A DNA stretch of 40,362 nt, taken from positions 1 to 40,362 of the IMG/VR virus record IMGVR_UViG_3300048115_000492; one strand, written 5' to 3'. Both the position numbers and the translations under genes were made by a program. The notes beneath the pieces were generated by a model that did no database searches, was not told the DNA's origin, and was given only the letters and a program-made list of their open reading frames with translations. Below, piece after piece: positions 1,038-40,108 of the stretch; the first letter of the stretch is position 1; each line of letters starts with the position of its first letter. This stretch comes from a virus.

Positions 1038-4000
1038 ATGTCTATACAAGTCCGAGATAATATTTACTCTGACATAGAAAGTCAGTTTCCAAACGTATAT
1101 AGAGAAAATAGTGAATTCTTTATAGCGTTTGTCGAGGCTTACTATCGCTATCTTGATCAAAAGAATGATCGAGATATTCCAAAGTTACGAGATATCGATA
1201 CAACTTTACCTACATTCTTTGTATACTATAAGAAGAAGTATCTTGCTGACCTTCCACTTGACTCAACTATTGATGTACCATTTATCGTAAAGCATATTAA
1301 TGATCTATACACAAGAAAGGGTACAAAAGAATCTCTTGAGTTATTGTTTAAGATGTTCTTCAATGAAGACATTACCGTAACTTACCCTGGCGGTAGTGTA
1401 CTAAAGCCATCTAATAGTCGATGGGGTGGTGAATCATTTCTTGAGATGAAGACTGTGTTTAGTGAAGATGGATATCCAATACAACGTGGTAATAGTATTA
1501 AGGGTGATCTATCAAGCGCAGAAGCATTTGTTGACGATATTGTATTTGTTAACTTCTCGGGCGCACTCACCCCCATTCTTTATATGTCAAATCTTAAAGG
1601 CACATTTGTGGGAGATGACTCGCTTGAAGTTATCTCTGCTACAAACGATGGAACAGAAACTATTATCAATGTTGGTAAACTAATTTCTGGTTCTGTATCA
1701 GGTGTAGAAATATCAAAAGCAGTACGACTACCAGAACAAAAACCTGGCGATACTGTTGATATCATTTCTAAAAAATCTGGTACTGGAGCAAAGGGTATTA
1801 TTACAAGTGCTTCCAAAACACAAGTAGGTAGTATTGATTATGAAATCATTGATGGTGGCTATGGTTATATTCAACCTAATACAAATGATTTCTCTAGTCA
1901 ACAAACTTTGGTAAGTAATCATGTTATTGTTCTAAGTGGTGACAATCCACATCCAACTTTAGAGGCGGGCGACACAATTGTATTCCCAGGTTCTACTGTA
2001 GACTATAATGGAAGAGATGAAACAAATGCGACACAGTATAGTGTAAATGGTAGTGCTATTGTAACTGAATATAGACATCCACTTTTGTTCATAAAAACAG
2101 AAACATCAAAAGATGACTTGTTCGATGTTTTCTCAGAATACTATTTTGGGCCTGCTATCTATCCATCTAATCTTTTGGTATCTGATGAGTATCCATATGA
2201 GGGTTTGAGTAATGGAGACCCTCATCCACTCGCAGGTCAACCATCTGGAGAAAATGTTGCACGAAATCTTTTCTATGATAATTTCGTAAACACTATGTAC
2301 ATTCGGGCTGGTAGTGAAGAACTTTTGAAATATCTAACTGAGTCACAACGTAAGTATTATTCCCAGTTCATGTCGCAACTTGAGCCTATTGACAAATATG
2401 GTGGAAATTTTTATAACGTACTTCTTGGTAGTGGAGACTTTAATGACCCCGTAGCAGAAACCAGTAATTTTAATGTTGATGCAGTGCAATTTTTTATTGG
2501 TTATCAAAACTCTATTAATAATGGCGTTGACGATGTAGACTTGTACAATCAGCCAACTGACTATGATAATTGGTTGGGGACTAATAGTATTAATCAGAAT
2601 AGCGAGGGTGAGATTAACGAAGCACTTCTTGCTACAGAGGTCGCTGATAGATTACCTACAATTTCACCATTTGTTACACAAGCAGTACTAAGTCAAGGAA
2701 TAAAATCTGGTCGATTAGATAAACTGATTGATGGTCAGTTGTATACCTTGACTCATCGTGGTAAAATTCTTACCGATGACGACTTTGCTAAGATAGGGTG
2801 TAATACTCCAGTAGTTGGTGAAGACTTTGTGTTCACATCAGCTAACTTATTAAACTTGTCTAGAGGTGGAGAACATCACAAGCTAGACAAGTATGACGCA
2901 ATCTTTACACCGCACAAACAAGTGATAGCAAAATTCCTTAAATTCTTTAATGCGCTTGGTTTGTATAATCAGATTACTATAGGTTCTACATTAGACACAC
3001 CACCAAATTTTCCAAATACAGTTACTGAATTTTACCCTGCAAATGATGAAGACGGCAATGCTATTGCTATTGGTGAACCTCATCCACAAGCAGGTCAACC
3101 AGACTATGGTTTTTATAATCAGTATATAGTGCCTGTTGAAAATTTAGTACCGGGTAGAAGATACTATATTCGTGATGTTGGAACAACATCTTTTGCTGAC
3201 TGGAACTTATTGGGGGCTCAGTTGGGTACAAGAACTACACCAAATGAAGTTTTCGATAAAGAACTTTCTACTCGCCCAATAAGTCCACTTCAAGAATACA
3301 TGATTACTGATCTTGGCGACACTACCAAAAATCAGTGGGAGCAAATAGGGTGGGTGGCAAACAGTGATGGACATGGTGATGAGCCTGCACAAGGTGATAA
3401 ATTCATTGCCCCAGATTTTGTCTACAGTAATTATACAGTAGAAATAGACTCTATTGTATCAAACGCATATGTGGTAGGGTCTGGTTCTACTGATAGTACT
3501 GGTGCAATAACAGGTCAAGATAGACAGATTCAAATAGATGTTGGTGATACAGTAACATTTAATAATGATGTTCACGAAACACACCCAGTACAAATTTTAA
3601 GTCAATTTGAAGCAGTAGAAACAATATCAGATATCTCTGACGCATCAGCTACAGACACTACTGGCGATAGTGATTTTATCATATCGGGTCACGGCTTTTC
3701 TAGTGGTGATGAAGTTACTGTGAGTTTTGGTAGTGGTACATACGCCGATCTAGAAACAAATAAAACTTATTATGTTAAAAGGGTTAGTAGCAGTAACTTT
3801 GAATTATACACTCAACAAAGAAACGCCGCAGGGAATTTTTTCGACCAATATCAAGTTTCAATCAATCCGGCTAATTTAACTGCTTCTCAAACCTTTGTTG
3901 CTGATACAGCACTATCCACCATTACAGCACAAGATGCTAATGGTACTTACAGTTGTGATCCAACTACTCTCAAGGTGGGCGATAGAATTACAGTCTCAGG

Positions 4001-8540: not shown

Positions 8541-8558
8541 TAAATTTGGAAACGAATA

Positions 8559-10532
8559 ATGGCAAAGATTATAACAGAAAACTTTAAGATAGAAAATACG
8601 AATGAACTTTTCGATAGTTTGGATGATCAAAACTATTATGTTGTTGCGTCTAGAGCAATTACAAGAACAGAGGCTCAGATAACACCAAGCATTCAGAATA
8701 CTCAAGTATCTAAAAGAGATTTTTTGCGTAAGGTTATATTTGGTAGAAAACTAAGTACAGATAACGCAAGATATATGTTTGTCGAAAACCCTTGGGTTAA
8801 GGGTACTATTTACGACCAATTTGACGACACTCAAGATATCGAAACTTTAAACATGATTGTGACTATTCAAGAAGAAGGTAAAGATTCTTACTTAGTGTAC
8901 AAGTGTTTAGACAACAATAATGGCACACAGTCTCAAGAGATACCTGGTGTTGTCGATCCAACAAACTATCAGAGAACGAAAACTCAAGATGGGTATACTT
9001 GGCAATTCATGTTCAGAGTTTTACCCGCAGAGGTAGCTGATTTTAAGACTGCTGACAACTTACCACTACCAGTTATTGAGGGCGGGTATGGTGATAAAGA
9101 TGTAAAGAGAGAAGCGAAAGAAAATATATCAAATATTATTATAGAAGATACAATAGCGAGTCAGTTTAATCAGTATTTGTTTGGTGAGGCTACTAATATC
9201 AGTAACACTTCTGATGTTATCGTGGTTGACCCAGATACTTCGTCTTTGGGCGAATTTAGAAATATTACTGTAAGAGTGACAGCAAAAACTGGTAGACTTC
9301 TATACTCCGCCCCAGACGCATACAAAAATATGTATCTGAAACATGGTACAACTGGTAAACTGTATGATGTCGTTGCGTCTACATCTTCACCACAGATTAA
9401 TCAGATAACACTTAGAATTAAAAGTACCGATTTGTTTCTTGCACAACAAGTCTGTCAACTATTGATTAAGGTCAATGTAAGTTCTAGTTCACTTGTTGGC
9501 GAAAGGGCAAAGGCTTATCTAGAATTGGATGAATTTGGTACAGCTAAAAAAGTTTCATTCGAAACAAGAGGCGATGGTTACAAATCTGCAAGCGCACAAG
9601 TGGTGTACCCACCCCTACTGAAAAATTCAGCATCTGTTCTTAATAATCCAACACTGCTTCGTGCTATTGTTTCACCAAAAGGTGGTCATGGTTCAGACCC
9701 AATATCAGAAATGGCAATGAGTAAACTTGCCATAACTTCTACAATTGTTGGTACTAGTTTGTTTACTCCAGATGTTAACTTTTATTCGACTTTAGGTCTT
9801 GTTAAAAATCCAACATTTACCGATGCTAGTGGTGCTAGTGTAACGCCAGATGAATTCGATAACAGAACTATCCTAACAGTGTCTGGTGATCACATTGACA
9901 ATAGTGGAGATGAAATCACAGCAGATTCTCCATCACAGACTATACATAAACTTCTTCAGGGTGGCGGTGGAGTCGATAGTTATGTCGAGCAGTTTATAAA
10001 GACAATAAGTGTTCAAGAAATGGTTGATGGTGTGTCTTACACTATTGTAGACATGGGTACAGAGAACAGCCCCGCACAAATGGAGCAAAACGATTTCACT
10101 GCAATAGGTGCTTCAGGTGATAACATTGGTGTTGGTACTGTGTTTACAAGTACTAATACTGCAAGCATTTCGTCAATAAAAGACGGTAAGGTTTCTTTTG
10201 TTACTGATAGAGTTGATGTCACTTCGTCTACTTATGATTACAGTTTAGACATAGTAACCGCTAAAATACATGAAATTACTTCTGACGATAATAACACATA
10301 TATTCATCTGGTAGACTACGATGGAGATTTTGAGCATAAATTCCAAAAGGGTATTTTCTATATTAAACAAACTGAGTCAGCTACAGTCAGTATAAATAAT
10401 AAAACAACTAACACTATTTTGTATGGTCAATATGACGCATACTCGGGCGATCTATTACACTTTATAGATTTTACTCCTATCAATAGAAGCCCGACACGAA
10501 ACGAAAATATAAAGTTCACGTTTGATTTTTAA
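8559..10532 (+). CDS. 8: Baseplate wedge subunit gp8
   Basis: The N-terminal third is typical of phage gp8: VSKRDFLRKVIFGRKL, then VENPWVKGTIYDQFDD, then YLVYKCLDNNNG, then DGYTWQFMFRV (residues about 50-155). In T4, gp8 is a 334-residue dimer that joins gp7, gp10 and gp53 in the wedge. This one has 657 residues, in line with the enlarged forms of marine relatives. Residues about 488-533 hold a copy of the module that recurs through the window (DGVSYTIVDMG, then FTAIGASGDNIGVGTVFTST), so even a core wedge protein has accepted it. The start ATG at 8559 follows a GGAAACG sequence after an 18-base gap. The motif TATAAATA occurs in its 3' end (10391). Confidence 0.85.
   Translation: MAKIITENFKIENTNELFDSLDDQNYYVVASRAITRTEAQITPSIQNTQVSKRDFLRKVIFGRKLSTDNARYMFVENPWVKGTIYDQFDDTQDIETLNMIVTIQEEGKDSYLVYKCLDNNNGTQSQEIPGVVDPTNYQRTKTQDGYTWQFMFRVLPAEVADFKTADNLPLPVIEGGYGDKDVKREAKENISNIIIEDTIASQFNQYLFGEATNISNTSDVIVVDPDTSSLGEFRNITVRVTAKTGRLLYSAPDAYKNMYLKHGTTGKLYDVVASTSSPQINQITLRIKSTDLFLAQQVCQLLIKVNVSSSSLVGERAKAYLELDEFGTAKKVSFETRGDGYKSASAQVVYPPLLKNSASVLNNPTLLRAIVSPKGGHGSDPISEMAMSKLAITSTIVGTSLFTPDVNFYSTLGLVKNPTFTDASGASVTPDEFDNRTILTVSGDHIDNSGDEITADSPSQTIHKLLQGGGGVDSYVEQFIKTISVQEMVDGVSYTIVDMGTENSPAQMEQNDFTAIGASGDNIGVGTVFTSTNTASISSIKDGKVSFVTDRVDVTSSTYDYSLDIVTAKIHEITSDDNNTYIHLVDYDGDFEHKFQKGIFYIKQTESATVSINNKTTNTILYGQYDAYSGDLLHFIDFTPINRSPTRNENIKFTFDF
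10020..10157 (+). repeat. Recurrent module in gp8 (coding)
   Basis: MVDGVSYTIVDMG, then DFTAIGASGDNIGVGTVFTS. This is the copy closest to the form I recall from other marine phages (DFTAIGAS..N.VGT.FTA). Confidence 0.75.
10391..10398 (+). promoter_or_regulatory. Possible late promoter motif inside the end of gp8
   Basis: An exact TATAAATA lies about 150 bases before the ATG of the DUF4815-type gene. It is inside coding sequence (codons for S-I-N-N) and does not share the longer ACTATAAATATA string, so it may be chance in AT-rich DNA. Confidence 0.25.
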
Positions 10533-25100: not shown

Positions 25101-26913
25101 TGACCCTCTCAATGGAGTTTCTAAAGATGCGACCACATATTCTAGAGATAACACACAAGGTGCTAGATTTAGAGTTTATAGTGACTTAGCAACTGGTAGA
25201 ACTGGTACAGCTAGACCGGGTCAAATTTATTCAAACGAAGAAGGTACTGATAGTAATCAAGACAGTTTATATGACTTTGACTTCACTAAAGTAACGATGC
25301 TTAAAATTGAGTTCTCGTGGTATGGTGCGGTAGGTGCATTGTTCCTTGCATATATTCCTGTTGATAATGGCGAAGCAAGATGGGTACGAGTGCATCATCT
25401 AAGAGCATCGAATCAGTTGAAGATTGCATCTCTTGGTAACGCAACACTACCGATCACATACACAACATATGGTGGTGGATCAGTATACTGTTTGGGTGAT
25501 GGTGAAGACCTTCTAGCAGAACAGGGTTATGGTAGTAAATCTCATCACATCGTTAAGTATGGTGCTTCATACTATATTGATGGTGGTGACCGTGGTACTG
25601 TTCGTCTATACAGTCATAATAATGACGATACTGTATCTGCCAGAGGTAAAAGATTTGCTGTTACTGGAGCATATTCTGTAGATAATGGTGGAACAGCCAA
25701 CATACTCGGAGAGTCTGCCCCTGTTCCACAACTTACTGTGACAGAAAAGTATGTGGTTGGTGATCTAGCAGGTACTGTAACCACCATAGACGATGATGGT
25801 AATGATGGTGATGTTAATGGTAATAACTTTACTGTAGTGGCAGGTGATATTGTAAGAGTTGCCGGTAATGGTTTAACCAATGGTGATTATGTTGTAGCGA
25901 ATAGCCCAACCCCAACGTCTAGTGCATTTAGATTAACTGGGCTGAATCCAGGTTCGACAGTTACCATTGATAGTAGCCACACTTTCCAAGTAGTGAAACT
26001 TATTGACCCGACTTTCTACATAGGCGCAAAAGTTAAAACTGATAGTCTGTTAGATCAGAATGTTGAAGTTGTTTGGGCACAACAGGGTGGCGATAAAGTT
26101 TACTTGTCAGCACCCTTAGAGTCTTCGAGTAATATATCTCTACTTCCAGACAGAGCGGCAACAGTTTATGGTGTTGAAACTAAAAAAGTTATTCGTAGTA
26201 CGAGAGAAAGCAATCTCGTTCGTAACAGAGTTCAAGTATATCCAACTAAGTTGTCATCTGCCAATATTGGTGATGATACAGTAAGACTTCGTTTCAAGAA
26301 AACACCAACATTCCAGACTGATGTTACGCCTAATACTGGTAATAATGGATTCAGAATTAATGGTGCATATACAATTGATAACAATAATGAAGCTATTACT
26401 CAAAATGGTCAAGCTGATTATCTTCAAAATGGAGAAGAATTGTTTGGGTGGTTTAGAGGTCGTATTGTATCTGAAGCAGTTACTGTTTTCGGTAGACTAT
26501 ATAGAGATGCAGATTCGTATTATTTTGAACTATTACAATCTTTTGAGGGTGAAATTGTGTTAAATAGTGGTGGCGTATTCTTACCAGACTTGAAGTTCCA
26601 AGCAGATGGTAGAGAAATACCCTTCTCAACTACAAATACTAAGTACTCTGAGGAAAAAGAAGGATTAAGTTCTGTAGAGATAGCATCTAATACTGTTGTA
26701 CCAATTGCAGGTACTGGAATAAATGTGGCTACAACTTATTTACGATCAGGCACAGAGCAATTTGACTTGAGCCCATATTTTGACTATAATAAAGAATATC
26801 TATCATTCCCTTTGACAGATATTGCCGATAGTTTATACTTTGCTGTAGATTCTGATACAGCAAGTACGAACACTGACGAAATTAGCTTGGGTGTAACATG
26901 GGAAGAGCAGTAG
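22105..26913 (+). CDS. Large virion structural protein, paralogue of the next gene
   Basis: A 1602-residue protein of a type seen in T4-like marine phages; I cannot give a T4 name. It shares at least four blocks in order with the next protein: an N-terminal SLLGIPRAE ... FADVNTYD block, SKRFFRYQPGR, EFSWYGAVGA ... AYIPVDNGEARWV, and VKYGASYYIDGGDRGT. Between the second and third shared blocks it has two copies of a Cys-Arg-Asp repeat (KCERDLNYWID at Cys332 and KCQRDVGYVID at Cys592). A weak copy of the G..Y.I module lies at about residues 496-539. I see no enzyme motif. It is probably a baseplate-periphery or long-fibre component. The start has an AGGA site seven bases upstream and a late promoter motif. 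Confidence 0.65.
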   Translation: MASINNISSNSAVINVGRTTPVSPGAQTADKSIPVVMASDQTAIPVEEQNKVQSEVALSLLGIPRAEVALGIFADVNTYDVNPSEWSMKPAYHTVGDGIKHLPTEAGALVEASRNKTAVLTSKRFFRYQPGRVSAATFGIKSSVSVAKFAKNPVIRKYGIYDKYDGYYWETRNDGQEDNFSCVRRTQSLQYAPVSPYGLAGVTKRRGEDNLGTIGNADDYTGAETITNTQIDDYRIVGLGADESSEFLGSFVKERKILTEKRFELIDEILDSLPDIPDSQKLNLGYSTSIATGVNFENNDFYGAFAEAYNTSLGVDAVDALEFDAAQIRAKCERDLNYWIDMFLEDLKWGGNAHTKWNTTNFALSDGSNWSAKPVGLFPNIPLFERIIHERLRKQFDDTVSGNYADSAHAAVAVLSDVSTSAKAKLRTLMDDIVLVAFPDDSSSPKVPTTFAPQTSNIDYGSKDSIDTIYEVKKNFWSYYVTTKTAEITGVTAANMTADKKYTIIGGTLETHTVMAAMSDTNFSGASDVYLGKTFKVKTSGATFPNTSTMIVCETIDYVAAGGGTSSNGVSALFNFTGLTNDQIKAVIKNKCQRDVGYVIDGYKNDVNKGIDAETTYNMQMFTRGTGMSVYSQVESDGTLSEPTRHGHLKTILSNDLNAAGLSSDLRAKQDALAARVVANFAREDLKTLSLARNNRPFPGNLVVLRDGLIHTHAAVFDPSLLKDDKNVLAIVENNGVRSDTYGSKVANTFKLTEGIVTFGQHVKITWSGGASSIEIQGGSGETSPDVFVQKGEVLRVRRVLGPRGNEFTLMKADGTTFGNPPQPLPVTIASSDIAGLGSVYINTVVPFMFPVDYDLEAVNSGEASVTSEIATTTATTLNYASDASDTSNLSSDRAKQRQFKTFTAPTNTGAVPNGAMFPYMYAFQQNLLDNTNVQEGDQCLGFINTALDTSQGDSVDRLRSQIDNVNFYPEYVNWIKNNVKPEYWGVYEYRVPRSRFSHDPLNGVSKDATTYSRDNTQGARFRVYSDLATGRTGTARPGQIYSNEEGTDSNQDSLYDFDFTKVTMLKIEFSWYGAVGALFLAYIPVDNGEARWVRVHHLRASNQLKIASLGNATLPITYTTYGGGSVYCLGDGEDLLAEQGYGSKSHHIVKYGASYYIDGGDRGTVRLYSHNNDDTVSARGKRFAVTGAYSVDNGGTANILGESAPVPQLTVTEKYVVGDLAGTVTTIDDDGNDGDVNGNNFTVVAGDIVRVAGNGLTNGDYVVANSPTPTSSAFRLTGLNPGSTVTIDSSHTFQVVKLIDPTFYIGAKVKTDSLLDQNVEVVWAQQGGDKVYLSAPLESSSNISLLPDRAATVYGVETKKVIRSTRESNLVRNRVQVYPTKLSSANIGDDTVRLRFKKTPTFQTDVTPNTGNNGFRINGAYTIDNNNEAITQNGQADYLQNGEELFGWFRGRIVSEAVTVFGRLYRDADSYYFELLQSFEGEIVLNSGGVFLPDLKFQADGREIPFSTTNTKYSEEKEGLSSVEIASNTVVPIAGTGINVATTYLRSGTEQFDLSPYFDYNKEYLSFPLTDIADSLYFAVDSDTASTNTDEISLGVTWEEQ
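23071..23190 (+). repeat. Cys-Arg-Asp repeat, copy 1 (coding)
   Basis: The translation has IRAKCERDLNYWIDMFLEDL followed by GGNAHTKWN. The pattern C.RD..Y.ID...D...G....T..N matches the copy about 780 bases downstream. The same pattern recurs in structural proteins of marine phages as I recall it. Confidence 0.6.
23590..23721 (+). repeat. Recurrent module, weak copy in the 1602-residue protein (coding)
   Basis: MTADKKYTIIGGTLETHTVM, then LGKTFKVKT. It keeps the Y.I and G..F positions but lacks the Trp and the usual spacing. Confidence 0.35.
23842..23970 (+). repeat. Cys-Arg-Asp repeat, copy 2 (coding)
   Basis: The translation has IKNKCQRDVGYVIDGYKNDV followed by KGIDAETTYN. It aligns with copy 1 at Cys, Arg-Asp, Tyr, Ile-Asp, Thr and Asn, so the two look like an ancient internal duplication. 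Confidence 0.6.
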
Positions 26914-29900: not shown

Positions 29901-31020
29901 AGCAGGTGGTAGAACTGACGATGAACCACAGGTAAAATTTGATGCGGGTGATAGTAGCTATATTGACTATGATAGAAATACTTTCCCATCCATAGAGTAT
30001 TGTCACTTAGCTACTGCTTTCGACTCAAGAGATAGAATAAAACTTGGAGAAATAGATTATAGTTATGGCCCTCGTTTAAGTGTTGATCCAAGACTTGATG
30101 GAGCAGGTGGTGGAGTAGAGAATAAACTAGAGGGTGCAGACCCCGGTATTATCTCTGCCGTTAAGGGTGAGGTTGCTACAGTTAACTTTCCATTCGAGAC
30201 TATTGGTGATGATCCAGACCCAAATATTAAAAGAATCATTTTTGCTGAAGGCGAGCAGGGCCCAGAAGACAATTCTATAATACCTGGCGTATCTGAAATA
30301 GGCATTGACTTTGCAGGTAGTGGACATAAGTATCAGAGTCAGACAATATATCCACCCGACAATGCCGCTGACACAAGACCGTATATACAAGTCGATGCAA
30401 GTGCCTTTGATGTTTTGAATGGTCTTATCACAAGTTTAAATAAAGTTATTCAGACTAAGATGCTCGTGTTGACAGACGATTGGCAAGCTGTATCTTTAGA
30501 CGAAAACGGAGACGAGATATTTCAAAATAAATCATTTAGAGTGACAAAGGCTGTTCCGTTTGACGCTCAACCACTATATCCAGTATTCGCATTGAGTGAT
30601 AACTGTAGAATTAACGGTGTAGTTATCGAAGAGATATCTGAGCAAAACATAATTAAGACACATACACCGACATTTGTAACAGACTCTACCACTTGGAATA
30701 CTTCTATTTCTTTCCCAGTTCAACCGGGAACAAGTAATACAAACAATCCGTCAGCTTTTAATGGAGAAAGGGATCTTTCTGCGTGTAGATATGACGAAAG
30801 TCTTATGAATCCACTAAGACCAGGGAATGTTCTATATTCATACTATGTTGCAGAAAACGAAACTGTGAGCATTAATTTAGATAACATATTTGCTAGAGAC
30901 AGAAAGGGTATCGAGAGAGGCTCCCTAAATAATAAAGCAATATATATTACTGCATCTAAATTAACCAGTACTGATCCAACAGGTAATGTACAGATTTCTC
31001 TAACTAGCAGGGAGCAATAA
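26917..31020 (+). CDS. Large virion structural protein, paralogue of the preceding gene
   Basis: A 1367-residue protein. Its shared blocks with the upstream gene are SLLGIPRSE ... FSDVATYG near the N-terminus, SKRSFRYQPGRASGFTFG, EFSWYGAIGA ... AYIPVENDEARWV, and YKYGSSVYIDGGDEGT. The Cys-Arg-Asp repeats of its neighbour are absent; in that place is a helical stretch (GRYLYNKFLVIDAQFAKENF). Residues about 739-828 hold a module also found in the gp7-like protein (GEFSCQSRKMRVGERFSVTG ... TTAGTVDGLTFT). No catalytic motif was seen. The start is three bases after the previous stop, and the TAA overlaps the next ATG (TAATG). It is probably a baseplate or fibre component; the T4 counterpart is unknown. 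Confidence 0.65.
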   Translation: MAKQIKIGHDQKPAPVTKQFIQLIDIDGTPLFDDAGNPLVTEENAALTTLTLSENALSVHVNNNPELGDSGGKAIPVVERFKETSEVSSSLLGIPRSEEQLSLFSDVATYGLDVENWDASQIFKDHRNYPEQWYRKEHPIHGRRSNARFYEGSDEQALYLKAFPSQYTYPEGTKEQRRSTPSTNFIKYMNFIALGRYLYNKFLVIDAQFAKENFISETDATIVQGGVAEESIRDFEFNINDATLIFANSSSWFDVKYGQVDLQDSFDAIERWTSFYDKIAAGTDQYPQMPQDLIDAEAGAEQIALVGYKGFAEYGLIRAFVTSTDTRPGGLSNVTYYGILQSKRSFRYQPGRASGFTFGARMVAGDPNSTAQIAEWGCSNDTDEYMFQLKGSEFNIVRRSTVRMPNELLERQGLDSTAQKSTKVTQYGIGNNSRLWETVISRSDFNGDNLLGNGPSGYILSFEDVTMYKVEFSWYGAIGAKFYAYIPVENDEARWVLLHTFVIENGLGEPILENPDFKFKYLIYTNDTKDIREPMYLYKYGSSVYIDGGDEGTIRLSSKSTTGSRPFTDRTPILGILPKEELSNTVGESKPNYKKSYPNVISVTSDRNCRIDFEEIKGTPMGVHFNYSPCIHMNGRHPKTRTVIAKYDVGTAGNTLNRITLLQPNERNQILLNGQNKFDLVTESFLVDLQDGSSLVNIASNSVAKTFDTLQVGDCLYFGEDLTNYKIKKFINQLPLQSVQVTGTSGEFSCQSRKMRVGERFSVTGTLAGSATATIAEHTTASSTLEVSEIQGNPGITESDSVTSFKLVELNGNDLTTTAGTVDGLTFTTIDVTEYSSENKTTVVLEENYVHDSNFVPSLTGAQANLRYVYNQDELYSHVLADGVFGTYVGADGDIFKRRNDGNEEDDYKLQIGVAEDSRKADGSIFRVDGSNTDESKYFEAKLIGYHTVVASTRPIYADKFRIHFLNPTGTNKDSYSNFSEFSVGITPYYPLASGAGGRTDDEPQVKFDAGDSSYIDYDRNTFPSIEYCHLATAFDSRDRIKLGEIDYSYGPRLSVDPRLDGAGGGVENKLEGADPGIISAVKGEVATVNFPFETIGDDPDPNIKRIIFAEGEQGPEDNSIIPGVSEIGIDFAGSGHKYQSQTIYPPDNAADTRPYIQVDASAFDVLNGLITSLNKVIQTKMLVLTDDWQAVSLDENGDEIFQNKSFRVTKAVPFDAQPLYPVFALSDNCRINGVVIEEISEQNIIKTHTPTFVTDSTTWNTSISFPVQPGTSNTNNPSAFNGERDLSACRYDESLMNPLRPGNVLYSYYVAENETVSINLDNIFARDRKGIERGSLNNKAIYITASKLTSTDPTGNVQISLTSREQ
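29131..29400 (+). repeat. SC-VGD module, 1367-residue protein copy (coding)
   Basis: SGEFSCQSRKMRVGERFSVT, then GTLAGS ... FKLVELNGNDLTTTAGTVDG: counterpart of the gp7 unit at 3921. Confidence 0.6.
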
Positions 31021-34000
31021 TGGCTATAATCAGGGGACTAAATGTATCTAAGGCTCTTATCGATATAGATGATAAAAAAGCGTCTCTAGCCAATCTAGGC
31101 CTAAGAATTGATGATCTCGATCTTCTTAGAAATTTAGTAAGAGATGCTGATCTAAACATTTTTGATTTCCATCAAATAGCAGGTCTTGTCGATAATCAAC
31201 TTAGATTGTTCTCTTCTCAACAAGTTTGTGCTAACACAGCAGACTCTGATGTTGAAAATATGAATGAGGTTGATTCAAAGCAGAGATATAATCTTGCTGT
31301 TGATGATAGACTCATTGCAGGCGCAATTAAGTACAACTATGTAGACTTTGTTACACCAAATCTAGCACCAATAGTAGTCACTCAAATTAACGGCACCACA
31401 ATTAGTGGTAGTAATTTGGATACTGTCGAATATAATGGGAAAACTTATACATTATCAGCAGGCGATAAGATTAGAATAACTGACACTGGTAGTAGTGTGA
31501 CTAGTGGGGACTATGAAATAAATAGCGTTTCTTCTAGCCAAATTGTCTTAACCTCTTCTGCTTCATCTGGCGCCGTTACCGACTTCACAAATATAGTAGT
31601 GTCTTTTATAATAGAATGGCCTGTCAGAAGCGCAGATATTTCAACATCCAGAGTATCGTCTTGGTCGCCTATAGGTCCCGAAAATGCTCCAGACTCTTAC
31701 ATAACTTATGGTGGAGAGTTGGTTGTTGATGGTGAATATCTAGCATTAACTAAACTTGGTGTGACTTCTCAGCCGGTTGAAAAGCAGTTTAGAGCAGAAG
31801 TTCCAACACATACAATTAAACTTAATATCAATGGAAGTGATGTACAGTTACCTGTTATAAAGGGTATACCACTAGAATTTATTTCTTCTGGGGCAAATTA
31901 TGCTTATATTAGACTGGGTAGATCAGCCAACACACCTGCAATTACTGATAATGAGGGGGTTATACCGGCAACATTCAAAGTTTCAAACCTAAGTATACCA
32001 AGTGCAACACCGCTAGTTTATGACAGAAATGTGTCTAGCACAACCACGCAAACAGTTTTTTCCTACGGTCTTAATACAACCAATAAGTATAAAGCAGAAG
32101 TATATTACCCACCAAACAATATAGGGTTCTTGTCTGTATATCGATTTGGCGTAAAAGATTTTCCCAATACCAAAATGGAAAATTTGAAAGAATTAGAGTT
32201 GCTTTATAATCAATTTAAATACATACCTAATCTAAAGTCTCTAACACCCTCGTTGGAAAAACTTAAAATTAGTTATAACCCTCTTCATTCGGCTGTAAAC
32301 TATTTGGAAGATTTAGATTTAGGTCATCTCGATGGTGTATATCAAGTAACTGAGGAATTTGTCGATAATGATTTAAGACAAATTGTGTCACAGAAACAAT
32401 TAGATAATTTACCAATTAGTATTAAAGAAGTAGAGGCAATAAATGCCTTTAGAGGCTCTATTAATCTTAATACTGAGCATTTGCCTAATTGTGTTAAATT
32501 TCAAATATATGCCACAAGTAGTTCTCAAGCTAATAGAATTACATGGCCGTTCGAGAGCCCTAGAGGTGCAGACCCAGGCACAGCAATAGAGTTTAATCCA
32601 TCGACAACTGATGTTTATGAAGTTACAAACAATGTAGCAAGATTCAAATTATCTAATCATCAGCTTTCTACTGGAGATGTAGTTAAGTACGATTTTCATG
32701 CCTATCCATTAGACACTGATGACGACCCAACGGTCGGTGTGGGTGTAGATAATATGGGCCAGGCTCTTGGTGGTCTTACCGGTGGGGAGTTATACGATGT
32801 CGCTAAGATATCGGACAATGAAATTGAGTTAAGAGATCGTAGTTCTGGTGTTGCTCCAACTTCTTCTGCATACACAGCATTAAAGGGTGAACTACATTCT
32901 TTCGTAAAATGGAATACTACTGATAATGATATATTCATAGACACAAATAAGGCACCTGGTTTTGAGGAAATGAAACTTAGCTATGCATCTTATCAGTTTT
33001 TGTCTCGTCATATATGCAATAGCCCTGCATTAGAGATAATTGACTTTGATTCAACTCCAATTAAATCTATAGGTAGAACACCATATGTTACGAGAGGTGG
33101 TGTAGAAGGTGACGCTAATAGACTCAAGTCAAACTCTGATAGAAAAATATATTTTAAAAGTAAAGTGCTAACGAGCATAAAGTTGCGTTACTATCGGGCT
33201 AATCTTAATCTAGACTTTTCTGACAATCCACTTTTGAAATCATTATGGTTAGAGAATTGTAGACCCGATAGATTTTGGGGGGATAGTCAGCGAACAATAA
33301 ACGCTAGTATGCTAAATAATTGCCCTGCATTGACGACTATAAAGTTTAAATATTTGTATCAGAGCCTGACTGGCAGTGAGAGAGTTAGAGCAAATATTGA
33401 TAGTATCTTGCGTAACAAACCTAATCTAACTCTTTATGACGAATACTACAATGCCGGTGTTCATATAAATCTTGATGATAATACGCTTAGTGGAAATGGT
33501 GGTTCTTTGCAAACTTTTAGTTCTTATGCTCATTCCGGTGGCCGAGGGTTTGGTGGGTTCGAATATAATAGTGATTACTTTGCTATCGATGGAAGCAATA
33601 ATAGAACAGGGTTATGCTTCGAAGCCTGTAAAGGGAGTATGACAAATCTGAAAGTAAGATTCCAATATCATAAGCACGTTAGATTGGTTAATGATGATGA
33701 TTTAAGTAATGTCATCAAGGTACCTATTAGTGATATGTCAAATCTAGATCAACTATGGATTTACGAGTGTAATCAATGGGGCAAAGTTCCAAGTCTTTCA
33801 AATTTATCCAAATTGAACAGAATCTGGCTTTATAATGGCAAAAGCCAACGAGCGCCCGCCATTCAATCTTTTGGTGAAAACAATATCTTCTCAATTAGAG
33901 TATTGCCTAACAACAGTCAATATGGTAACGGTACTACTCTTTCTGCTATTAATCAATATGGATATTTTTTACCAAAAGAATATGAAGATATGGGGTGGTC

Positions 34001-35201
34001 ATCAACTGAGAAAGATTCTGATTTAGTTGATTTTGGGTCTGATGTACAGCATGGTTCTACCCCTGCGGTAGGCGATCACTTCAAGTACAATTATCTCGAT
34101 GTCGATAATATAATACCAGGTATGTACTATATGATTCAAGATGTTGGATCAATGACCACAGCACAATGGCAAAATTTAGGTTGGGCCGCTAATACGCCTT
34201 ACGCTGATCCTTATAATAAATTAAGAGGCAGACAAAGCAGTGTATTCACTCATGGTTACGAATTCTGTACAGGGTCTCAACCTAAAAGGGGTGACTTCTT
34301 TAGATGTCCACCAAGTAAGACTGGTTTGAATAGAGCAATTTTAGGTTCATTAACTAACGGCGCTGAATATAGAATACTTAGAAGTGGTTTTACAGGTTCT
34401 GGTAGTTATCAATATGACTTTAGGAATCAGGGTGCATCTAATAATAATGTGGGTACTGTTTTTACAGCAGACACATCTAACGATGCGACAATCAATTCGA
34501 ATACTAATTCGACTTATGGTACATTCAGGGTGGCAGAAAGAACTACTTATTCGGATTTAGGCGATGGTAAGATTTCTCGGGTGTCAACAAGTACCTTTGT
34601 CCAAGGCGTTCAATTTCTTGGATTCAGAGGAAGTTTAGGTGATTTGCAAAATATGAGTCAATTGCAAGATTTAAGAGTTTATAATAACTCTTTTTCTGGA
34701 CAATTCCCTAATCCAATAGCACCAGCTTTGAAAGATTTATACGCTCAGAATAATTATTTTAGTGGTAATGTTCCAGATATGAGTGACTGTCCTATTCTAG
34801 AAGAACTCAAACTAAATAATAATGATATAACGGGGTATGTCTCGCAAAGTTTAAGATTTAATACGAAAGCGACTCTAGTAGATTTGAGTGAAAACAGACT
34901 CCCTGCGTCTGTGGCTGGCGACTTAATAAACGATCTGTGGTTTATGGCTACGCCAAACACACCAAGAAAGGGTATAACTGTTAGACTTAATGGTCAAAAA
35001 GGGTTCGATCCTGGCACTAACGAAGACTACTTAGACAATAATGGATTTGCTACAAGATTATCTGTACAGGCGTTGATAGATATACCTGGCTCTGGTGATG
35101 ATGATAATCTTGATGTAAACGGGCTTCCGCTTCATCCATATCGAAGATACTTGTCCTTAATTGGAGCATTCCAATGGGATATAGAGATAGACGAAACATA
35201 G
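31020..35201 (+). CDS. Leucine-rich-repeat virion protein (putative adhesin)
   Basis: A 1393-residue protein. The start (ALIDIDDKKASLANLGL, then DDLDLLRNL) is of the attachment type seen in marine phage fibres. LRR-like segments occur in several blocks: about residues 376-422 (NLKELELLYNQFKYIPNL, then LEKLKISYNPL), 715-757 (LDFSDNPLLKSLWLENC), 904-943 (NLDQLWIYECNQWGKVPSLS) and 1202-1307 (QLQDLRVYNNSFSGQFPNP, LKDLYAQNNYFSGNVPDMSD, LEELKLNNNDITGYV, LVDLSENRLP). The last block follows the L..L.L..N..G..P form of plant and bacterial LRRs. Inserted modules break the series at residues about 537-610 and 1030-1154. LRRs commonly bind proteins or glycans, so receptor recognition is a fair inference. 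A start overlapping the previous stop implies coupled translation. Confidence 0.7.
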   Translation: MAIIRGLNVSKALIDIDDKKASLANLGLRIDDLDLLRNLVRDADLNIFDFHQIAGLVDNQLRLFSSQQVCANTADSDVENMNEVDSKQRYNLAVDDRLIAGAIKYNYVDFVTPNLAPIVVTQINGTTISGSNLDTVEYNGKTYTLSAGDKIRITDTGSSVTSGDYEINSVSSSQIVLTSSASSGAVTDFTNIVVSFIIEWPVRSADISTSRVSSWSPIGPENAPDSYITYGGELVVDGEYLALTKLGVTSQPVEKQFRAEVPTHTIKLNINGSDVQLPVIKGIPLEFISSGANYAYIRLGRSANTPAITDNEGVIPATFKVSNLSIPSATPLVYDRNVSSTTTQTVFSYGLNTTNKYKAEVYYPPNNIGFLSVYRFGVKDFPNTKMENLKELELLYNQFKYIPNLKSLTPSLEKLKISYNPLHSAVNYLEDLDLGHLDGVYQVTEEFVDNDLRQIVSQKQLDNLPISIKEVEAINAFRGSINLNTEHLPNCVKFQIYATSSSQANRITWPFESPRGADPGTAIEFNPSTTDVYEVTNNVARFKLSNHQLSTGDVVKYDFHAYPLDTDDDPTVGVGVDNMGQALGGLTGGELYDVAKISDNEIELRDRSSGVAPTSSAYTALKGELHSFVKWNTTDNDIFIDTNKAPGFEEMKLSYASYQFLSRHICNSPALEIIDFDSTPIKSIGRTPYVTRGGVEGDANRLKSNSDRKIYFKSKVLTSIKLRYYRANLNLDFSDNPLLKSLWLENCRPDRFWGDSQRTINASMLNNCPALTTIKFKYLYQSLTGSERVRANIDSILRNKPNLTLYDEYYNAGVHINLDDNTLSGNGGSLQTFSSYAHSGGRGFGGFEYNSDYFAIDGSNNRTGLCFEACKGSMTNLKVRFQYHKHVRLVNDDDLSNVIKVPISDMSNLDQLWIYECNQWGKVPSLSNLSKLNRIWLYNGKSQRAPAIQSFGENNIFSIRVLPNNSQYGNGTTLSAINQYGYFLPKEYEDMGWSSTEKDSDLVDFGSDVQHGSTPAVGDHFKYNYLDVDNIIPGMYYMIQDVGSMTTAQWQNLGWAANTPYADPYNKLRGRQSSVFTHGYEFCTGSQPKRGDFFRCPPSKTGLNRAILGSLTNGAEYRILRSGFTGSGSYQYDFRNQGASNNNVGTVFTADTSNDATINSNTNSTYGTFRVAERTTYSDLGDGKISRVSTSTFVQGVQFLGFRGSLGDLQNMSQLQDLRVYNNSFSGQFPNPIAPALKDLYAQNNYFSGNVPDMSDCPILEELKLNNNDITGYVSQSLRFNTKATLVDLSENRLPASVAGDLINDLWFMATPNTPRKGITVRLNGQKGFDPGTNEDYLDNNGFATRLSVQALIDIPGSGDDDNLDVNGLPLHPYRRYLSLIGAFQWDIEIDET
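32145..32285 (+). repeat. LRR block 1 (coding)
   Basis: The segments MENLKELELLYNQFKYIPNL and PSLEKLKISYNPLHS follow the LRR pattern L..L.L..N.....P..L, about 23 residues apart. Confidence 0.65.
32628..32849 (+). repeat. HG-type module in the LRR protein (coding)
   Basis: FKLSNHQLSTGDVVKYDFHA, then LTGGELYDVAKISDNEIELR. It is set between LRR-like blocks and carries an extra loop. Confidence 0.5.
34107..34310 (+). repeat. Recurrent module, LRR-protein copy 1 (coding)
   Basis: IIPGMYYMIQDVGSMTTAQW, then QNLGWAANTP, a long loop, then RGDFFRCP. It lies between LRR blocks. Confidence 0.65.
34347..34481 (+). repeat. Recurrent module, LRR-protein copy 2 (coding)
   Basis: LTNGAEYRILRSGFTGSGSY, then FRNQGASNNNVGTVFTADTS, immediately after copy 1. 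Confidence 0.65.
34623..34940 (+). repeat. LRR block 4, the clearest (coding)
   Basis: Four consecutive units are readable: LQDLRVYNNSFSGQFPNP, LKDLYAQNNYFSGNVPDM, LEELKLNNNDITGYV and LVDLSENRLPASV. They show the L..L.L..N.F.G..P form. Confidence 0.8.
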
Positions 35202-35210
35202 GTATTATAA

Positions 35211-37361
35211 ATGGCTCAAGGATTTGTAAAAAATTTAAATTTAGTAGAAAGTTCTAGTCGACCTAGTGACGCTGGCATACTAAACAATTTGGGTGGATTA
35301 GGTATTGCTGATGATATTGGATTGTTTGATGGTAATACTAAATTCAAATCTAGATTGGTAAATGACCCTAACTTTATAGGTAGAGTTAAAAACTATGGAT
35401 TTTTTGAAGAAGGTGTTCAGTACAAAATTCTTGTCTTAGGTGAAGATAGAGGGTGGCCTGCTGTTGGTTGGCAAGCAAATGACGGGCAAACAGGGGAAGC
35501 CCCAGAAGTAGACGACTTATTCACTGCCAACTTTTCTGGTGAAAATTTACCGGGTGTTGGTGGTATTGCTGTTGAAGTTCTAAACAGACGAGATATGAAT
35601 GCAGAAAATGATCCAATTGATGGTTGGACAATCGTCACAGATATTTTAGATGGTAAAAACGCATTTACTGATGGAACCCTACTACAAAAAGATAATGAGC
35701 CTGGCTTTAACTATGAAGTGTTTAATAGTGATGGTAATAGTAGATTTCAAATACGATCTGTAGCAACACAGCAAACTTTAGACTTGAGCGATATCGCTAC
35801 ATTCAAGCTAACAAGAACTGATGCAATAACCACAGAAAATGTACGAAAACTTATCGTAGCATCACCACCAATTCGAGGTGAAGTACAGTCTGAAGATGAC
35901 GAAGTAGAGCCATATCCAAGCCCGTTTGACCCTGATGGTCGAATTGAGTCAATAGAAGGTGTAATTTCTAACATAAACTTCAAAAAAAGTAATGTTGTTC
36001 TGTCATATAGAAATAACTTTTTTGATCTTGAAAGTGGTGTTGTATTTGGTGGTGCGATATCCGTAGAAAATCTTTCAAGTATAAGAATTGGTATCGATAC
36101 TGATTTTAATCAACTTGTTGTGGGCGAGTTATATCAAGTAGTTGCTCTAGGCACTGGTGCTTTTTGGGATCAGGTTGGCGCAAATGTTATTGATGAGAAT
36201 GTATCACCAGTGTCTTCTGGATCATTTGACACTACATCAAATGATGGTGGTGGTGTAATATATGTCATAGAAAATTTAGGCGTTGATGCAAGAGGAACTA
36301 ATGGTGCGTTCACATTTGGTGTGGGCGATATGGATGGAGGCTCAAATGAAATTGATCTTGGTAGTGGTCATGGTCTTGTAGTTGGCGATAAACTAAGATT
36401 GACAAAAACAGCAGACGATGACAATATATCTGGTTTACCAGTTAATGCTGATTATTTTGTGGTCGCTGTAGTCGATGACGAAATACAGCTTTCAACATCA
36501 TCGGGTGGTAGTATTCAAGAGTTTGAAACTCCATCCACTGGCACAAACTATACATTGACGATTGACCCACAAAAAGCATGGAATGTCATAGGCAACACTT
36601 CATCTTTAAATAGTGGAGCGGGTATTACTTATGAAGTGGGTGATTTCTTTACAGCTAACACTAACGGTTCTACTATTTCTAATGCTGTAGTATACCCTGT
36701 AATATTTAAAGCAACTGCTGTAGTTAATACTTCAGGTACTAATGGTAAAGCAAAGGCTCTAGAGCCACCTGGTCTATACATTCATAATGTAATGACTGAC
36801 GAAGCAAAAAGAGCATTTACTGGTAAAGATAACCCTTGGCAGGATAGTAATGTTACAATTGCAAATACAGTTGGTGGTGCTTCTTATAGTTTATCTGCAT
36901 TGACGACTAGTTCTGCTGTTGCTCAGGCAGGGGACTTCAATCTTAAAAGATCAGATGAGACTGATTGGGGAAGTTTTATTCCAGGTGAGAACTACACTAT
37001 CACTGATATTGGTAATGGTAGTAGAGACTGGAATGCTCTTGCAAACACCACAGGGCTAAATTATGAAGTAGGTGATACGTTTGAAGCCTCAGTTGATGGT
37101 AGTTCTCTTAACGCAGGGAGTGGTGGTAAAGCTATTGGTGAGCCTAAGTTAATATTTACAAATGAAAACCAGAATAGTGATAACGGCACATATGGCAATG
37201 ATGGTCTTGGAGATTTTAGCGGAAACATACAAGCGTCTGGTGCTAACATCACACACAAAATACCAATATATGTAAACGATGAGTTATATTATCTTTGCGC
37301 TTCATCAACGCCAACAGATGTTACAAATGGAGACTACAAGATTCTAGTTAAGCCAGATTAA
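35211..37361 (+). CDS. Virion protein built largely of the recurrent module
   Basis: A 716-residue protein with no recognised enzyme motif. It contains the recurrent module at least three times (EEGVQYKILVLGEDRGW..., VVGELYQVVALGTGAFW..., IPGENYTITDIGNGSRDW...) and a half copy (KAWNVIGNTSSLN ... VGDFFTANTNGS). It also has one HG-type module (GSGHGLVVGDKLRL ... ADYFVVAVVDDEIQLS). The N-terminus (KNLNLVESSSRPSDAGILNN) resembles those of the LRR protein and the minus-strand protein, so it may dock at a similar site. The start is nine bases after the LRR gene stop, so it probably ends the plus-strand operon. Its stop codon lies two bases from the stop of the convergent gene. Confidence 0.6.
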   Translation: MAQGFVKNLNLVESSSRPSDAGILNNLGGLGIADDIGLFDGNTKFKSRLVNDPNFIGRVKNYGFFEEGVQYKILVLGEDRGWPAVGWQANDGQTGEAPEVDDLFTANFSGENLPGVGGIAVEVLNRRDMNAENDPIDGWTIVTDILDGKNAFTDGTLLQKDNEPGFNYEVFNSDGNSRFQIRSVATQQTLDLSDIATFKLTRTDAITTENVRKLIVASPPIRGEVQSEDDEVEPYPSPFDPDGRIESIEGVISNINFKKSNVVLSYRNNFFDLESGVVFGGAISVENLSSIRIGIDTDFNQLVVGELYQVVALGTGAFWDQVGANVIDENVSPVSSGSFDTTSNDGGGVIYVIENLGVDARGTNGAFTFGVGDMDGGSNEIDLGSGHGLVVGDKLRLTKTADDDNISGLPVNADYFVVAVVDDEIQLSTSSGGSIQEFETPSTGTNYTLTIDPQKAWNVIGNTSSLNSGAGITYEVGDFFTANTNGSTISNAVVYPVIFKATAVVNTSGTNGKAKALEPPGLYIHNVMTDEAKRAFTGKDNPWQDSNVTIANTVGGASYSLSALTTSSAVAQAGDFNLKRSDETDWGSFIPGENYTITDIGNGSRDWNALANTTGLNYEVGDTFEASVDGSSLNAGSGGKAIGEPKLIFTNENQNSDNGTYGNDGLGDFSGNIQASGANITHKIPIYVNDELYYLCASSTPTDVTNGDYKILVKPD
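35397..35540 (+). repeat. Recurrent module, 716-residue protein copy 1 (coding)
   Basis: FFEEGVQYKILVLGEDRGWP, then AVGWQANDG ... VDDLFTANFSG. Confidence 0.65.
36111..36239 (+). repeat. Recurrent module, 716-residue protein copy 2 (coding)
   Basis: LVVGELYQVVALGTGAFWDQ, then VGANVIDENVSPVSSGSFDT. The first half is clear and the C-terminal half has drifted. Confidence 0.6.
36339..36512 (+). repeat. HG-type module in the 716-residue protein (coding)
   Basis: GSGHGLVVGDKLRLTKTADD, then NADYFVVAVVDDEIQLSTSS. Confidence 0.55.
36573..36671 (+). repeat. Recurrent module, half copy in the 716-residue protein (coding)
   Basis: KAWNVIGNTSSLNSGAG, then ITYEVGDFFTANTNGS. Only the W..G ... VGD.FTA half is present. 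Confidence 0.55.
36975..37106 (+). repeat. Recurrent module, 716-residue protein copy 3 (coding)
   Basis: FIPGENYTITDIGNGSRDWN, then ALANTTGLNYEVGDTFEAS. Confidence 0.7.
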
Positions 37362-37363: not shown

Positions 37364-40108
37364 TTAGCCACCAGGTGCGGTGTATGTTATAGGCATATAC
37401 TTATCTGTAGTTATAATAGTACCGCCGGCAATTTCAGATATACTATTTTCCGGCAATGTAAATGACAACTTAGAAAATCTCAACTCTTTAGCGATAACAT
37501 TCGGTCTATTAGGTGGAGTTTTCAATCCCTTAGTAGTACTCTCCCAAGGCGGTGCTGTGTTCAATGGTATGATACAATATTCTTTGTTTTCTCCATTCCA
37601 ACCATTTTGGGTGGGCACACCCTGATTATTGATTTCGCCCGCACTTCTTGATACAAACACAACTGTCGACCCCTTAACGAGGGCACCACTTATCGGCGCT
37701 GATAGCGTTACTGTTTTTGTGGAAGTATCAACCGCCGTTACTGTCGTGCCATGCGGGATTACACCATCAAAATAAATAAAATCTGCTAGTGATGCACTAG
37801 CGTTAGGTGTGATATTGTCAACATCAGATACTACAATTGATTGTGCCCCACTCTGATAAGTATTCATTACTTCTTTACCAATTACACCATTACACTCTTG
37901 TATAGTTGATCTATCACTAATACCTCTTGATCTATGTACAACAACAACGCCGTCAGTGGCGTTTATATCTGTTACACTTGATTCTGGATTGTTTTCAATC
38001 GTAATAATAGACTCTAGTGATGCGGGGATACCATAATGGTCTGTGCTTTTAACTCTGAACCCGTATTCATTGATGTCACTATTTGCGCCAGATGCACCTG
38101 TGAAGTTTACTTTGTATATTAAATCATTTTCTGTCACTGTGTTCGCAAAAGAACCAAATGCTTTTGGCGCCCTGTTAATCGTTTGAATTTGATGCTCGAC
38201 ACCTGCACCCGAGTCATTATCGGCATATTTGAAAACACCAACAAGACCTTCATTTTTAATAATTAGCACCTCAAACGCAGTATCTGGAGCAATATTAGTT
38301 AAATCGAAAAATTCGATTGGAAGAGATATGTAATGATAGTCACTATCTCGACTAGTAATTTCAACTTTAAACGCCCAGTAATTGTTCGCACCAGGAGGTT
38401 TTAATACTACGACATCGCCTTTATTCACTCCCCCGATTTTAGATGTAGCTACAGCCTCTTGATGTCTACCAGAACTATTGAGAGATAAAGTGTGTGAGAC
38501 AATCTCATTATTAGCACTGTCAAATAAAGTGCTTTGAGTTACAGATGATGATTTAAGTGATGGAGTGAACTCGTTTCTCAATGTGTTAATGACTTTTAAC
38601 TCAAAATCTGCTTTTTCGTTTGTCGGCCCTGCTCTATTGTCTCTAAAGAATGGATAACTATATCTTTTGCTAGAAAAATCTTGAGTCTGTTGGATTGGAT
38701 AAAATCTTGTATAACCAAACTCTGTATTGTTTGTTTCTTCTGCCTTTTTCACTCCACTAGCAGTGCCACCCTTTGCAACGCTAGGCCAGTAATGCGTATA
38801 TCTTACTCTTCTTCTGGCACCTCTATTTGGTGCAGTAATACCTAGTGATGGAAACTCAATTTCATCGTCTTTTGGCGAGAAAGAAAATATTATCTCATCA
38901 GTACCTGTAGCATCAGTGATATTGAAATCGTCAACAAGCGTTATTTTAAAATTGGTTCTGCTCATCGACTCTACTACAGATGTATAGTTTGACCCAGTGG
39001 CTGGGTCTGTAGTGTTATCGAAGGTGACAGTCATACCTAGCCCGACTCTACTCCAGTCGTGTCCATTACTCTGACAAGTTAAAACTGTTTTTCCATCTAC
39101 AGTTTCGTATGATATAGTTTCGTATGCTCTAAACTCAGGTTGTAATGTCCCTCTTACAAAACGCCAATTGCTTTCTACCGATTCGTTTTCAATTAAGTCT
39201 TCTTCTACAAGAAAACAACCAGTAATTAATATTTTGGCGTTAAAGCCACCATCTTGATATCCAGTGTGCTGAACAGCACCATTTCTATCAGAGAAAGATA
39301 TATCGAGTTTAGATGGATAGAAAAAGTCACCAGTACCGGGCCAGTAGTCTTCTGGGGTTATTATTGCTGGCACCTCTGCATTAAATATTTTTGTATGTAA
39401 CTCAGTTGGTTTCAACTGATTTGCGGCAACTTCATCAATTGCAAACGCATATGATGCCCTAGGTAAAGAAACATTTCTTACAGATGAACTGCTATATGTT
39501 GATGTTCCATCTATACTTGCAGTAAATATGTCGCCAACAGAATATGATCCACCAGATGCACCAGAGAGAGTATCCCATTGAGCGTCACTGTTATTATTAG
39601 TAACAATTTTATATCTTTGACCAGAAATAACATCATCACCATCAATAATAGATCCAATTTGTTGAGAAGAACTGTTTATTCTTTCTGTCGGAATTATCTC
39701 TGTAACAGGGCCGCTTCCACCATTAACAAATGGTGGATCACCAAATACAGTCTTAAATTTATTAAGATAGTCCTGCATTGTGACCTGAGGCTGAATAGGT
39801 TTGCTTGTGATAATTGATGGATCATTAGGATCAGCTATATCTATAAATGGTCGTGTATCTTTAAGATCAGTTAAAGCATAAGGTGGTACACCTGGCTGGG
39901 TGTAGTCGTATGTTTCATCTAGGTCGCTCTGAGAAAATATTCTTAGTGGTTCTATATCAGAAAGAGTAAATCCAGTAGGGTTGCCATCTATATCATTAAC
40001 GCTTGTCAGATCATTAATGACATTGGCGAGTGCCGTGCCTGAATCAGTTAGATCAGCTAACGCCCTATCTGCTCTCAATCCAAATTTTCTATACTTTCTA
40101 GATGACAT
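37364..40108 (-). CDS. Virion structural protein on the opposite strand (putative fibre/baseplate)
   Basis: A 914-residue protein. Its N-terminus (LRADRALADLTDSGTALANV, then FTLSDIEPLRIFSQ) is of the attachment type seen in marine phage fibre proteins and resembles the N-terminus of the LRR protein. Residues about 160-203 hold the recurrent module (ISGQRYKIVTNNNSDAQWDT ... VGDIFTASIDG). A weak HG-type unit follows (SNGHDWSRVGLG ... TNFKITLVDD). The rest is beta-rich (FFYPSKLDISFSDRNG; VRYTHYWPS) with no catalytic motif. The ATG at 40108 is preceded on its strand by AAAGAGAG about seven bases upstream. It runs convergent to the whole plus-strand cluster and shares a strand with the small gene upstream of it. 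Confidence 0.65.
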   Translation of the reverse strand: MSSRKYRKFGLRADRALADLTDSGTALANVINDLTSVNDIDGNPTGFTLSDIEPLRIFSQSDLDETYDYTQPGVPPYALTDLKDTRPFIDIADPNDPSIITSKPIQPQVTMQDYLNKFKTVFGDPPFVNGGSGPVTEIIPTERINSSSQQIGSIIDGDDVISGQRYKIVTNNNSDAQWDTLSGASGGSYSVGDIFTASIDGTSTYSSSSVRNVSLPRASYAFAIDEVAANQLKPTELHTKIFNAEVPAIITPEDYWPGTGDFFYPSKLDISFSDRNGAVQHTGYQDGGFNAKILITGCFLVEEDLIENESVESNWRFVRGTLQPEFRAYETISYETVDGKTVLTCQSNGHDWSRVGLGMTVTFDNTTDPATGSNYTSVVESMSRTNFKITLVDDFNITDATGTDEIIFSFSPKDDEIEFPSLGITAPNRGARRRVRYTHYWPSVAKGGTASGVKKAEETNNTEFGYTRFYPIQQTQDFSSKRYSYPFFRDNRAGPTNEKADFELKVINTLRNEFTPSLKSSSVTQSTLFDSANNEIVSHTLSLNSSGRHQEAVATSKIGGVNKGDVVVLKPPGANNYWAFKVEITSRDSDYHYISLPIEFFDLTNIAPDTAFEVLIIKNEGLVGVFKYADNDSGAGVEHQIQTINRAPKAFGSFANTVTENDLIYKVNFTGASGANSDINEYGFRVKSTDHYGIPASLESIITIENNPESSVTDINATDGVVVVHRSRGISDRSTIQECNGVIGKEVMNTYQSGAQSIVVSDVDNITPNASASLADFIYFDGVIPHGTTVTAVDTSTKTVTLSAPISGALVKGSTVVFVSRSAGEINNQGVPTQNGWNGENKEYCIIPLNTAPPWESTTKGLKTPPNRPNVIAKELRFSKLSFTLPENSISEIAGGTIITTDKYMPITYTAPGG
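39500..39631 (-). repeat. Recurrent module in the minus-strand protein (coding)
   Basis: VISGQRYKIVTNNNSDAQWD, then TLSGASGGSYSVGDIFTAS. Its second half is close to those of the 716-residue protein, the neighbour on the other strand. Confidence 0.65.

Follow-up and report, generated by a model that had tools for sequence, protein, structure and literature searches.

A phage leucine-rich-repeat protein carrying in-frame modules that recur in other virion genes

Results

The stretch of DNA analysed here (the window) comprises an entire IMG/VR virus record, a linear metagenomic contig of 40,362 bases. Its gene g10 (31020..35201, plus strand), which encodes a predicted leucine-rich-repeat (LRR) virion protein, is a single open frame of 1393 aa and was aligned with its family in alignments A1 and A3. 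Upstream lie the baseplate wedge genes g01 (gp6-like), g02 (gp7-like), and g04 (gp8-like), recognised by PHROG matches (phrog_219, 8.7e-72; phrog_17744, 3.1e-92; phrog_438, 1.5e-40) and forming a T4-type baseplate cluster, with the gp7 identity of g02 assigned by gene order and PHROG label. Since these genes precede it, g10 falls within the baseplate/tail-fibre cluster of a contractile-tailed phage. The order g08-g09-LRR gene-g11-g12, with g12 on the minus strand, was kept in all 18 loci inspected, with some neighbours in the most distant of these identified only from their size, place, and strand. The neighbouring genes g08 (22105-26913) and g09 (26917-31020) are partial paralogs (38% over 165 aa and 49% over 53 aa), and both matched phrog_1645, a virion structural protein. 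The N-terminus of g12 (37364-40108, minus strand) is weakly like the N-terminal domain of g10 (E = 0.003) and may represent a shared docking module.

The g10 product begins with a strongly conserved N-terminal domain (residues 1-112; 31020..31355; all segments of g10 are on the plus strand) of the pattern 'GLNV..L.DVD....L.NLGL..DDL..IRGL', which a family N-terminal HMM that excluded the window matched at 110 bits (6.6e-35). Still in the N-terminal part, insert A (residues 113-197, 85 aa; 31356..31610) is followed by a conserved mid domain (residues 198-362; 31611..32105) with an invariant 'DISTSR.S.WS' motif and columns invariant in alignments A1 and A2. LRR segment 1 (residues 363-517; 32106..32570) contains LRRs 1-5, whose strands start at residues 368, 389, 412, 468, and 491. 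Insert B, an HG-type module of 128 aa (residues 518-645; 32571..32954), lies between LRR 5 and LRR 6, and the degenerate LRRs 6-15 make up segment 2 (residues 646-941; 32955..33842). Insert C (residues 942-1201, 260 aa; 33843..34622) consists of three tandem modules of the pattern 'G..Y.I...G....W...GW...HG..P..GD.F', two copies being clear and the third shorter; it interrupts LRR 15 immediately behind the LxxLxLxxN segment, and the remainder of that repeat resumes after the insert. Segment 3 (residues 1202-1310; 34623..34949) holds LRRs 16-19, with a plant-receptor-like consensus, and a C-terminal part (residues 1311-1393; 34950..35198) closes the protein with the pattern 'R.G(V/I).V.L.GQ ... 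L...W.I.L', its terminal W being invariant in A1-A3. The inserts fall outside the LRR strand segments. The first-pass annotation had spanned 32145-34940, i.e., residues 376-1307 or the LRR zone; insert A lies outside that span, as a third insert.

Relatives were reached by recruiting contigs with gp6-like g01 and with g05, whose orthologs of the window protein showed up to 43% identity to it, and then through alignment A1. The A1-based search found 102 relatives in environmental viral contigs and two in MAG-binned contigs; 58 non-redundant relatives were kept for the family profile A3. No relative was found by tblastn of the window protein against INPHARED phages (a chance-level match only), by an exact-pattern search of viral contigs, or by recruitment with g11 as bait. 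Phrog_6688 was considered as a specific relative and rejected, as its matches extend to control genomes, E. coli among them. The family profile found no member in phiM12, S-8S56, ACG-2014f, HTVC008M, P-SSM2, or T4, and did match cyanophages S-TIM5 and S-TIM54. Literature searches for phage LRR virion proteins returned no paper matching the g10 family. The two MAG-binned members, L274 (JABBCA010000073.1) and L275 (NHEZ01000047.1), were in contigs of Opitutales and Cellulomonadaceae TMED98 MAGs; these are probably phage contigs, and the binning gives a weak hint of host. Three contigs encoding a compact LRR form (G051, G055, and G070, of L249, L258, and L241) also carry psbA/psbD-type photosystem genes. 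Since some compact-form contigs and S-TIM5 carry such genes, these phages infect cyanobacteria; no photosystem genes were found in the searched contigs of the window's clade.

That g10 encodes an LRR protein, as first noticed from the letters of the sequence, was confirmed by Pfam, PDB, and family-profile matches alike. In the window protein, LRR_R13L1 scored above its Pfam cut-off, alongside LRR_4 (1.3e-5) and LRR_8 (4e-4). Phmmer against PDB matched residues ~1198-1304 to PEPR1 (E = 7.6e-19) and BRI1 (about 3e-18), and the A3 profile of the 58 members matched plant LRR receptor ectodomains at E = 4e-118. Compact-member profiles of segment 1 and of the middle LRR part (segment 2), each taken alone, matched LRR structures at 9e-25 and 6.5e-27; the window's own segment 2 is weak (21 bits, 2.2e-7; hmmsearch with the compact HMM). 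When the window and its sister were left out of its construction, a family LRR HMM found 5 units above 0 bits in the window protein vs. 0.1 per shuffled copy, with segment 3 units scoring 13.7-16.4 bits each. Its consensus, LYYLYLQNNQFTGYIPAFSNLPN, has GxIP following LxxLxLxxNxL, as in the plant-specific LRR class, and the family consensus shows 19 consecutive LxxLxL strand motifs at a spacing of 21-35 residues, in keeping with the tandem repeats of 20-30 residues around an LxxLxLxxN core that characterise LRR proteins. The likeness of the last block to plant receptor LRRs, also proposed at first reading, was borne out by the PEPR1 and BRI1 matches and the GxIP-type consensus, which is clearest in segment 3. 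The first segment is nearer other LRR types, e.g., Crov588 and LIC11098; Crov588, by name a giant-virus LRR protein, was the top PDB match of compact segment 1 (alignment A4). In a Fourier-type test, hydrophobic periodicity was significant for the last segment only, and over the whole array the best period (22.75) scored just below the 95% null limit. These sequence profiles predict a curved LRR solenoid fold for the g10 product.

The first-pass annotation had described at least four LRR blocks and had left a choice between a solenoid carrying bulges and separate short LRR domains strung together, with comparison to LRR proteins of related phages as one check. In 26 compact relatives (794-847 aa), that comparison revealed one unbroken array of about 19 LRRs without such inserts. 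A compact-protein HMM, from which the window was left out, matched the window protein as four pieces in colinear order (2-163, 202-539, 657-950, and 1202-1332, with segment 3 at 104 bits), and the gaps between these pieces are inserts A, B, and C. Instead of four blocks, there are three LRR segments (363-517, 646-941, and 1202-1310) parted by two inserts, the middle segment being degenerate and able to resemble several. The HG-type module that had been reported between the blocks is insert B, and the 'two recurrent modules' correspond to the 260-aa insert C, which reads as three tandem copies. Short LRR domains that each fold alone and are joined by other modules would fit the distances of 128 and 260 residues between the window's LRR segments, and the degeneracy of the middle one; however, in the 26 compact relatives the three segments follow one another directly and the repeats keep their normal spacing. 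Moreover, insert C begins inside one LRR unit, where separate caps for segments 2 and 3 would be hard to accommodate, and we consider separate domains quite improbable. The uninterrupted compact relatives and the placement of inserts at fixed loop sites favour a single LRR solenoid with plug-in modules, the three segments presumably being continuous in the folded protein.

Modules A, B, and C are each found again elsewhere in the window, in other virion genes. Hmmsearch located the insert-C module twice in gp7-like g02 (3111..3470, plus strand; 1.8e-8 and 4.3e-10) and once each in gp8-like g04 (9981..10193, plus strand; 1.7e-6), g11 (36960..37157, plus strand; 6.6e-10), and g12 (39491..39640, minus strand; 5.9e-8). 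The insert-B module was found in g02 (3651..3821, plus strand; 2.1e-6) and g11 (2e-4), and that of insert A in g08 (25753..25989, plus strand; 8.1e-10). Inserts B and C gave no significant chain match in PDB, and the window's inserts matched no Pfam family at its cut-off. In-frame inserts within a protein that is colinear with insert-free relatives could also be inteins or other self-splicing elements, in which case the mature protein would be an uninterrupted LRR array. Pfam scans of the inserts, however, detected no intein-type (splicing) domain, and the inserts match modules within other virion proteins and follow module copy number in length; we regard self-splicing as very improbable.

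Inserts at both the B and C sites were present in 18 members besides the window, and inserts B and C were absent from all 26 compact relatives. Although a chimeric assembly or annotation artefact might be suspected in a linear metagenomic contig for which no isolate is in culture, these 18 members have their inserts at the same two sites in independent contigs, which refutes an assembly chimera, and we give an artefact next to no credence. Insert A was confined to the window, L200, L195, and L196. The C insert measures 123-185 aa in shorter-type members with two modules (L198/L205-type), about 224-261 aa in three-module members, among them the window, and 317 aa in L196. Alternative sites were used in other members, namely between LRR 12 and LRR 13 (L235, L247, L248, L251, and L273) and after LRR 11 (L256/L259). 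A global MAFFT alignment had put the clade II insert at site C; this placement was rejected, as the HMM pieces place it between LRR 12 and LRR 13. Two domains were recognised in the sister-clade insert, one Lcl_C-like (3.6e-6) and one cupredoxin-like (7e-5), both below Pfam curated cut-offs. In L247 (residues ~582-1290; 6744-8870) and L235 (6867-9110), the Lcl_C-like (DUF1566) domain lies inside the LRR protein and itself holds a cupredoxin-like segment (YQC.AHP.M) and recurrent modules.

In a FastTree phylogeny of core columns rooted on S-TIM5, members with both B and C inserts form one clade (support 0.998) nested among compact forms, and the members with insert A form a subclade inside it, joined at a weakly supported node (0.559). 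The remaining two insert types fall on separate branches of the core tree, of which gain of inserts would be the simplest reading. Insert and core can diverge independently: two members, L207 and L222, share 78-91% identity across their core regions and only 45% in insert B, which suggests that one module has been replaced or is changing faster.

Discussion

The closest cultured comparison is cyanophage S-TIM5, whose gp118 (YP_007006107.1), an ortholog of g10, belongs to the g10 family by homologous sequence and by its place in the structural cluster, and is annotated 'virion structural protein and packaging' in the record. Both gp118 and UYE97282.1 of S-TIM54 occupy the same slot as g10, after the g09 homologue gp119 and before gp117 and the minus-strand gp116, and have a g10-type N-terminal domain (1e-10), a match to the family profile (7e-22), and LRRs above the Pfam cut-off. 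However, the LRRs of gp118 are very divergent and carry no LRR annotation in the record, its extra material is at other places, and the window's A, B, and C modules were not recognised there.

LRR proteins are classic eukaryotic recognition scaffolds. The ectodomains of the plant LRR receptor kinases GSO1, FLS2, PEPR1, and BRI1 share the consensus LxxLxLxxNxxxGxIP and were the best PDB matches of the family profile, whereas g10 has no kinase or transmembrane part and lies in a phage virion gene context; the likeness is one of repeat, not of domain order. In BRI1, a 70-residue island interrupts the LRRs (PMC6536576), and in PSKR1 the ligand site is formed between the LRR and the island loop (PMC7918699). 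Like these receptors, g10 has additional domain(s) within an LRR array, a likeness in working that does not imply a relation in sequence, but g10 has two larger module inserts in its array, and there are several alternative sites across the family. Among tailed phages, the genome of jumbo phage pir03 has an annotated BspA-type LRR protein (PMC7765460). That protein is of a different LRR type as annotated. Phage Ig-like accessory domains are small and occur as in-frame insertions in virion proteins that are unrelated but have such domains in common. The modules of g10 are similarly shared in frame, but are without a Pfam match at cut-off or a significant PDB match.

We think it fairly probable that g10 encodes a virion protein consisting of one solenoid of ~19 LRRs with in-frame islands that most likely contact the host surface. 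The phage would be contractile-tailed, marine, and related to the lineage of cyanophage S-TIM5. The conserved N-terminal part (residues 1-112 and 198-362) probably docks the protein to the baseplate region, and the remainder would be a single LRR solenoid with a C-terminal cap at the end of its roughly 19 repeats. Modules of small size, which the same phage employs in other virion proteins too, would have been inserted in frame: B behind LRR 5, C within LRR 15, and A in the N-terminal part. Since the order of LRRs is unbroken by these in-frame inserts, they are expected to protrude as island domains; most likely, it is these islands together with the exposed solenoid that touch the host surface, and gain, loss, or exchange of islands would alter what is contacted.

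A putative receptor-binding role is plausible from the position of g10, the faster evolution of its LRR and insert regions (mean identity of 54-60% vs. 67% in the N-terminal domains across 88 pairs), and the Lcl_C-like insert of the sister clade. The Lcl_C family includes carbohydrate-binding members. However, the modules are not peculiar to a receptor-binding protein, as they are also found in the core baseplate genes g02 (gp7-like) and g04 (gp8-like), and every region of the LRR protein has dN/dS below 1, indicating purifying selection throughout. A structural or decorative role is therefore a live rival, in which g10 would encode a whisker- or collar-like scaffold and the modules would be generic sticky decorations like phage Ig-like domains. 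We judge this rather unlikely, given the faster divergence of LRR and insert regions relative to the N-terminal domains and the Lcl_C-like domain that the sister clade carries within the solenoid. More tentatively, the family may be viewed as an exchangeable 'pegboard' adhesion protein, whose fixed solenoid loop sites could have been plugged independently with recognition modules (tandem YxI, Lcl_C-like, and cupredoxin-like), a possibility that would amount to modular host-range evolution.

For cultured phages, the uncharacterised gp118 of S-TIM5 gains a domain assignment and a testable role. More broadly, a widespread family of aquatic phages with a 19-repeat LRR protein in the virion cluster, and with repeated loop inserts, would record the decoration of a recognition solenoid.
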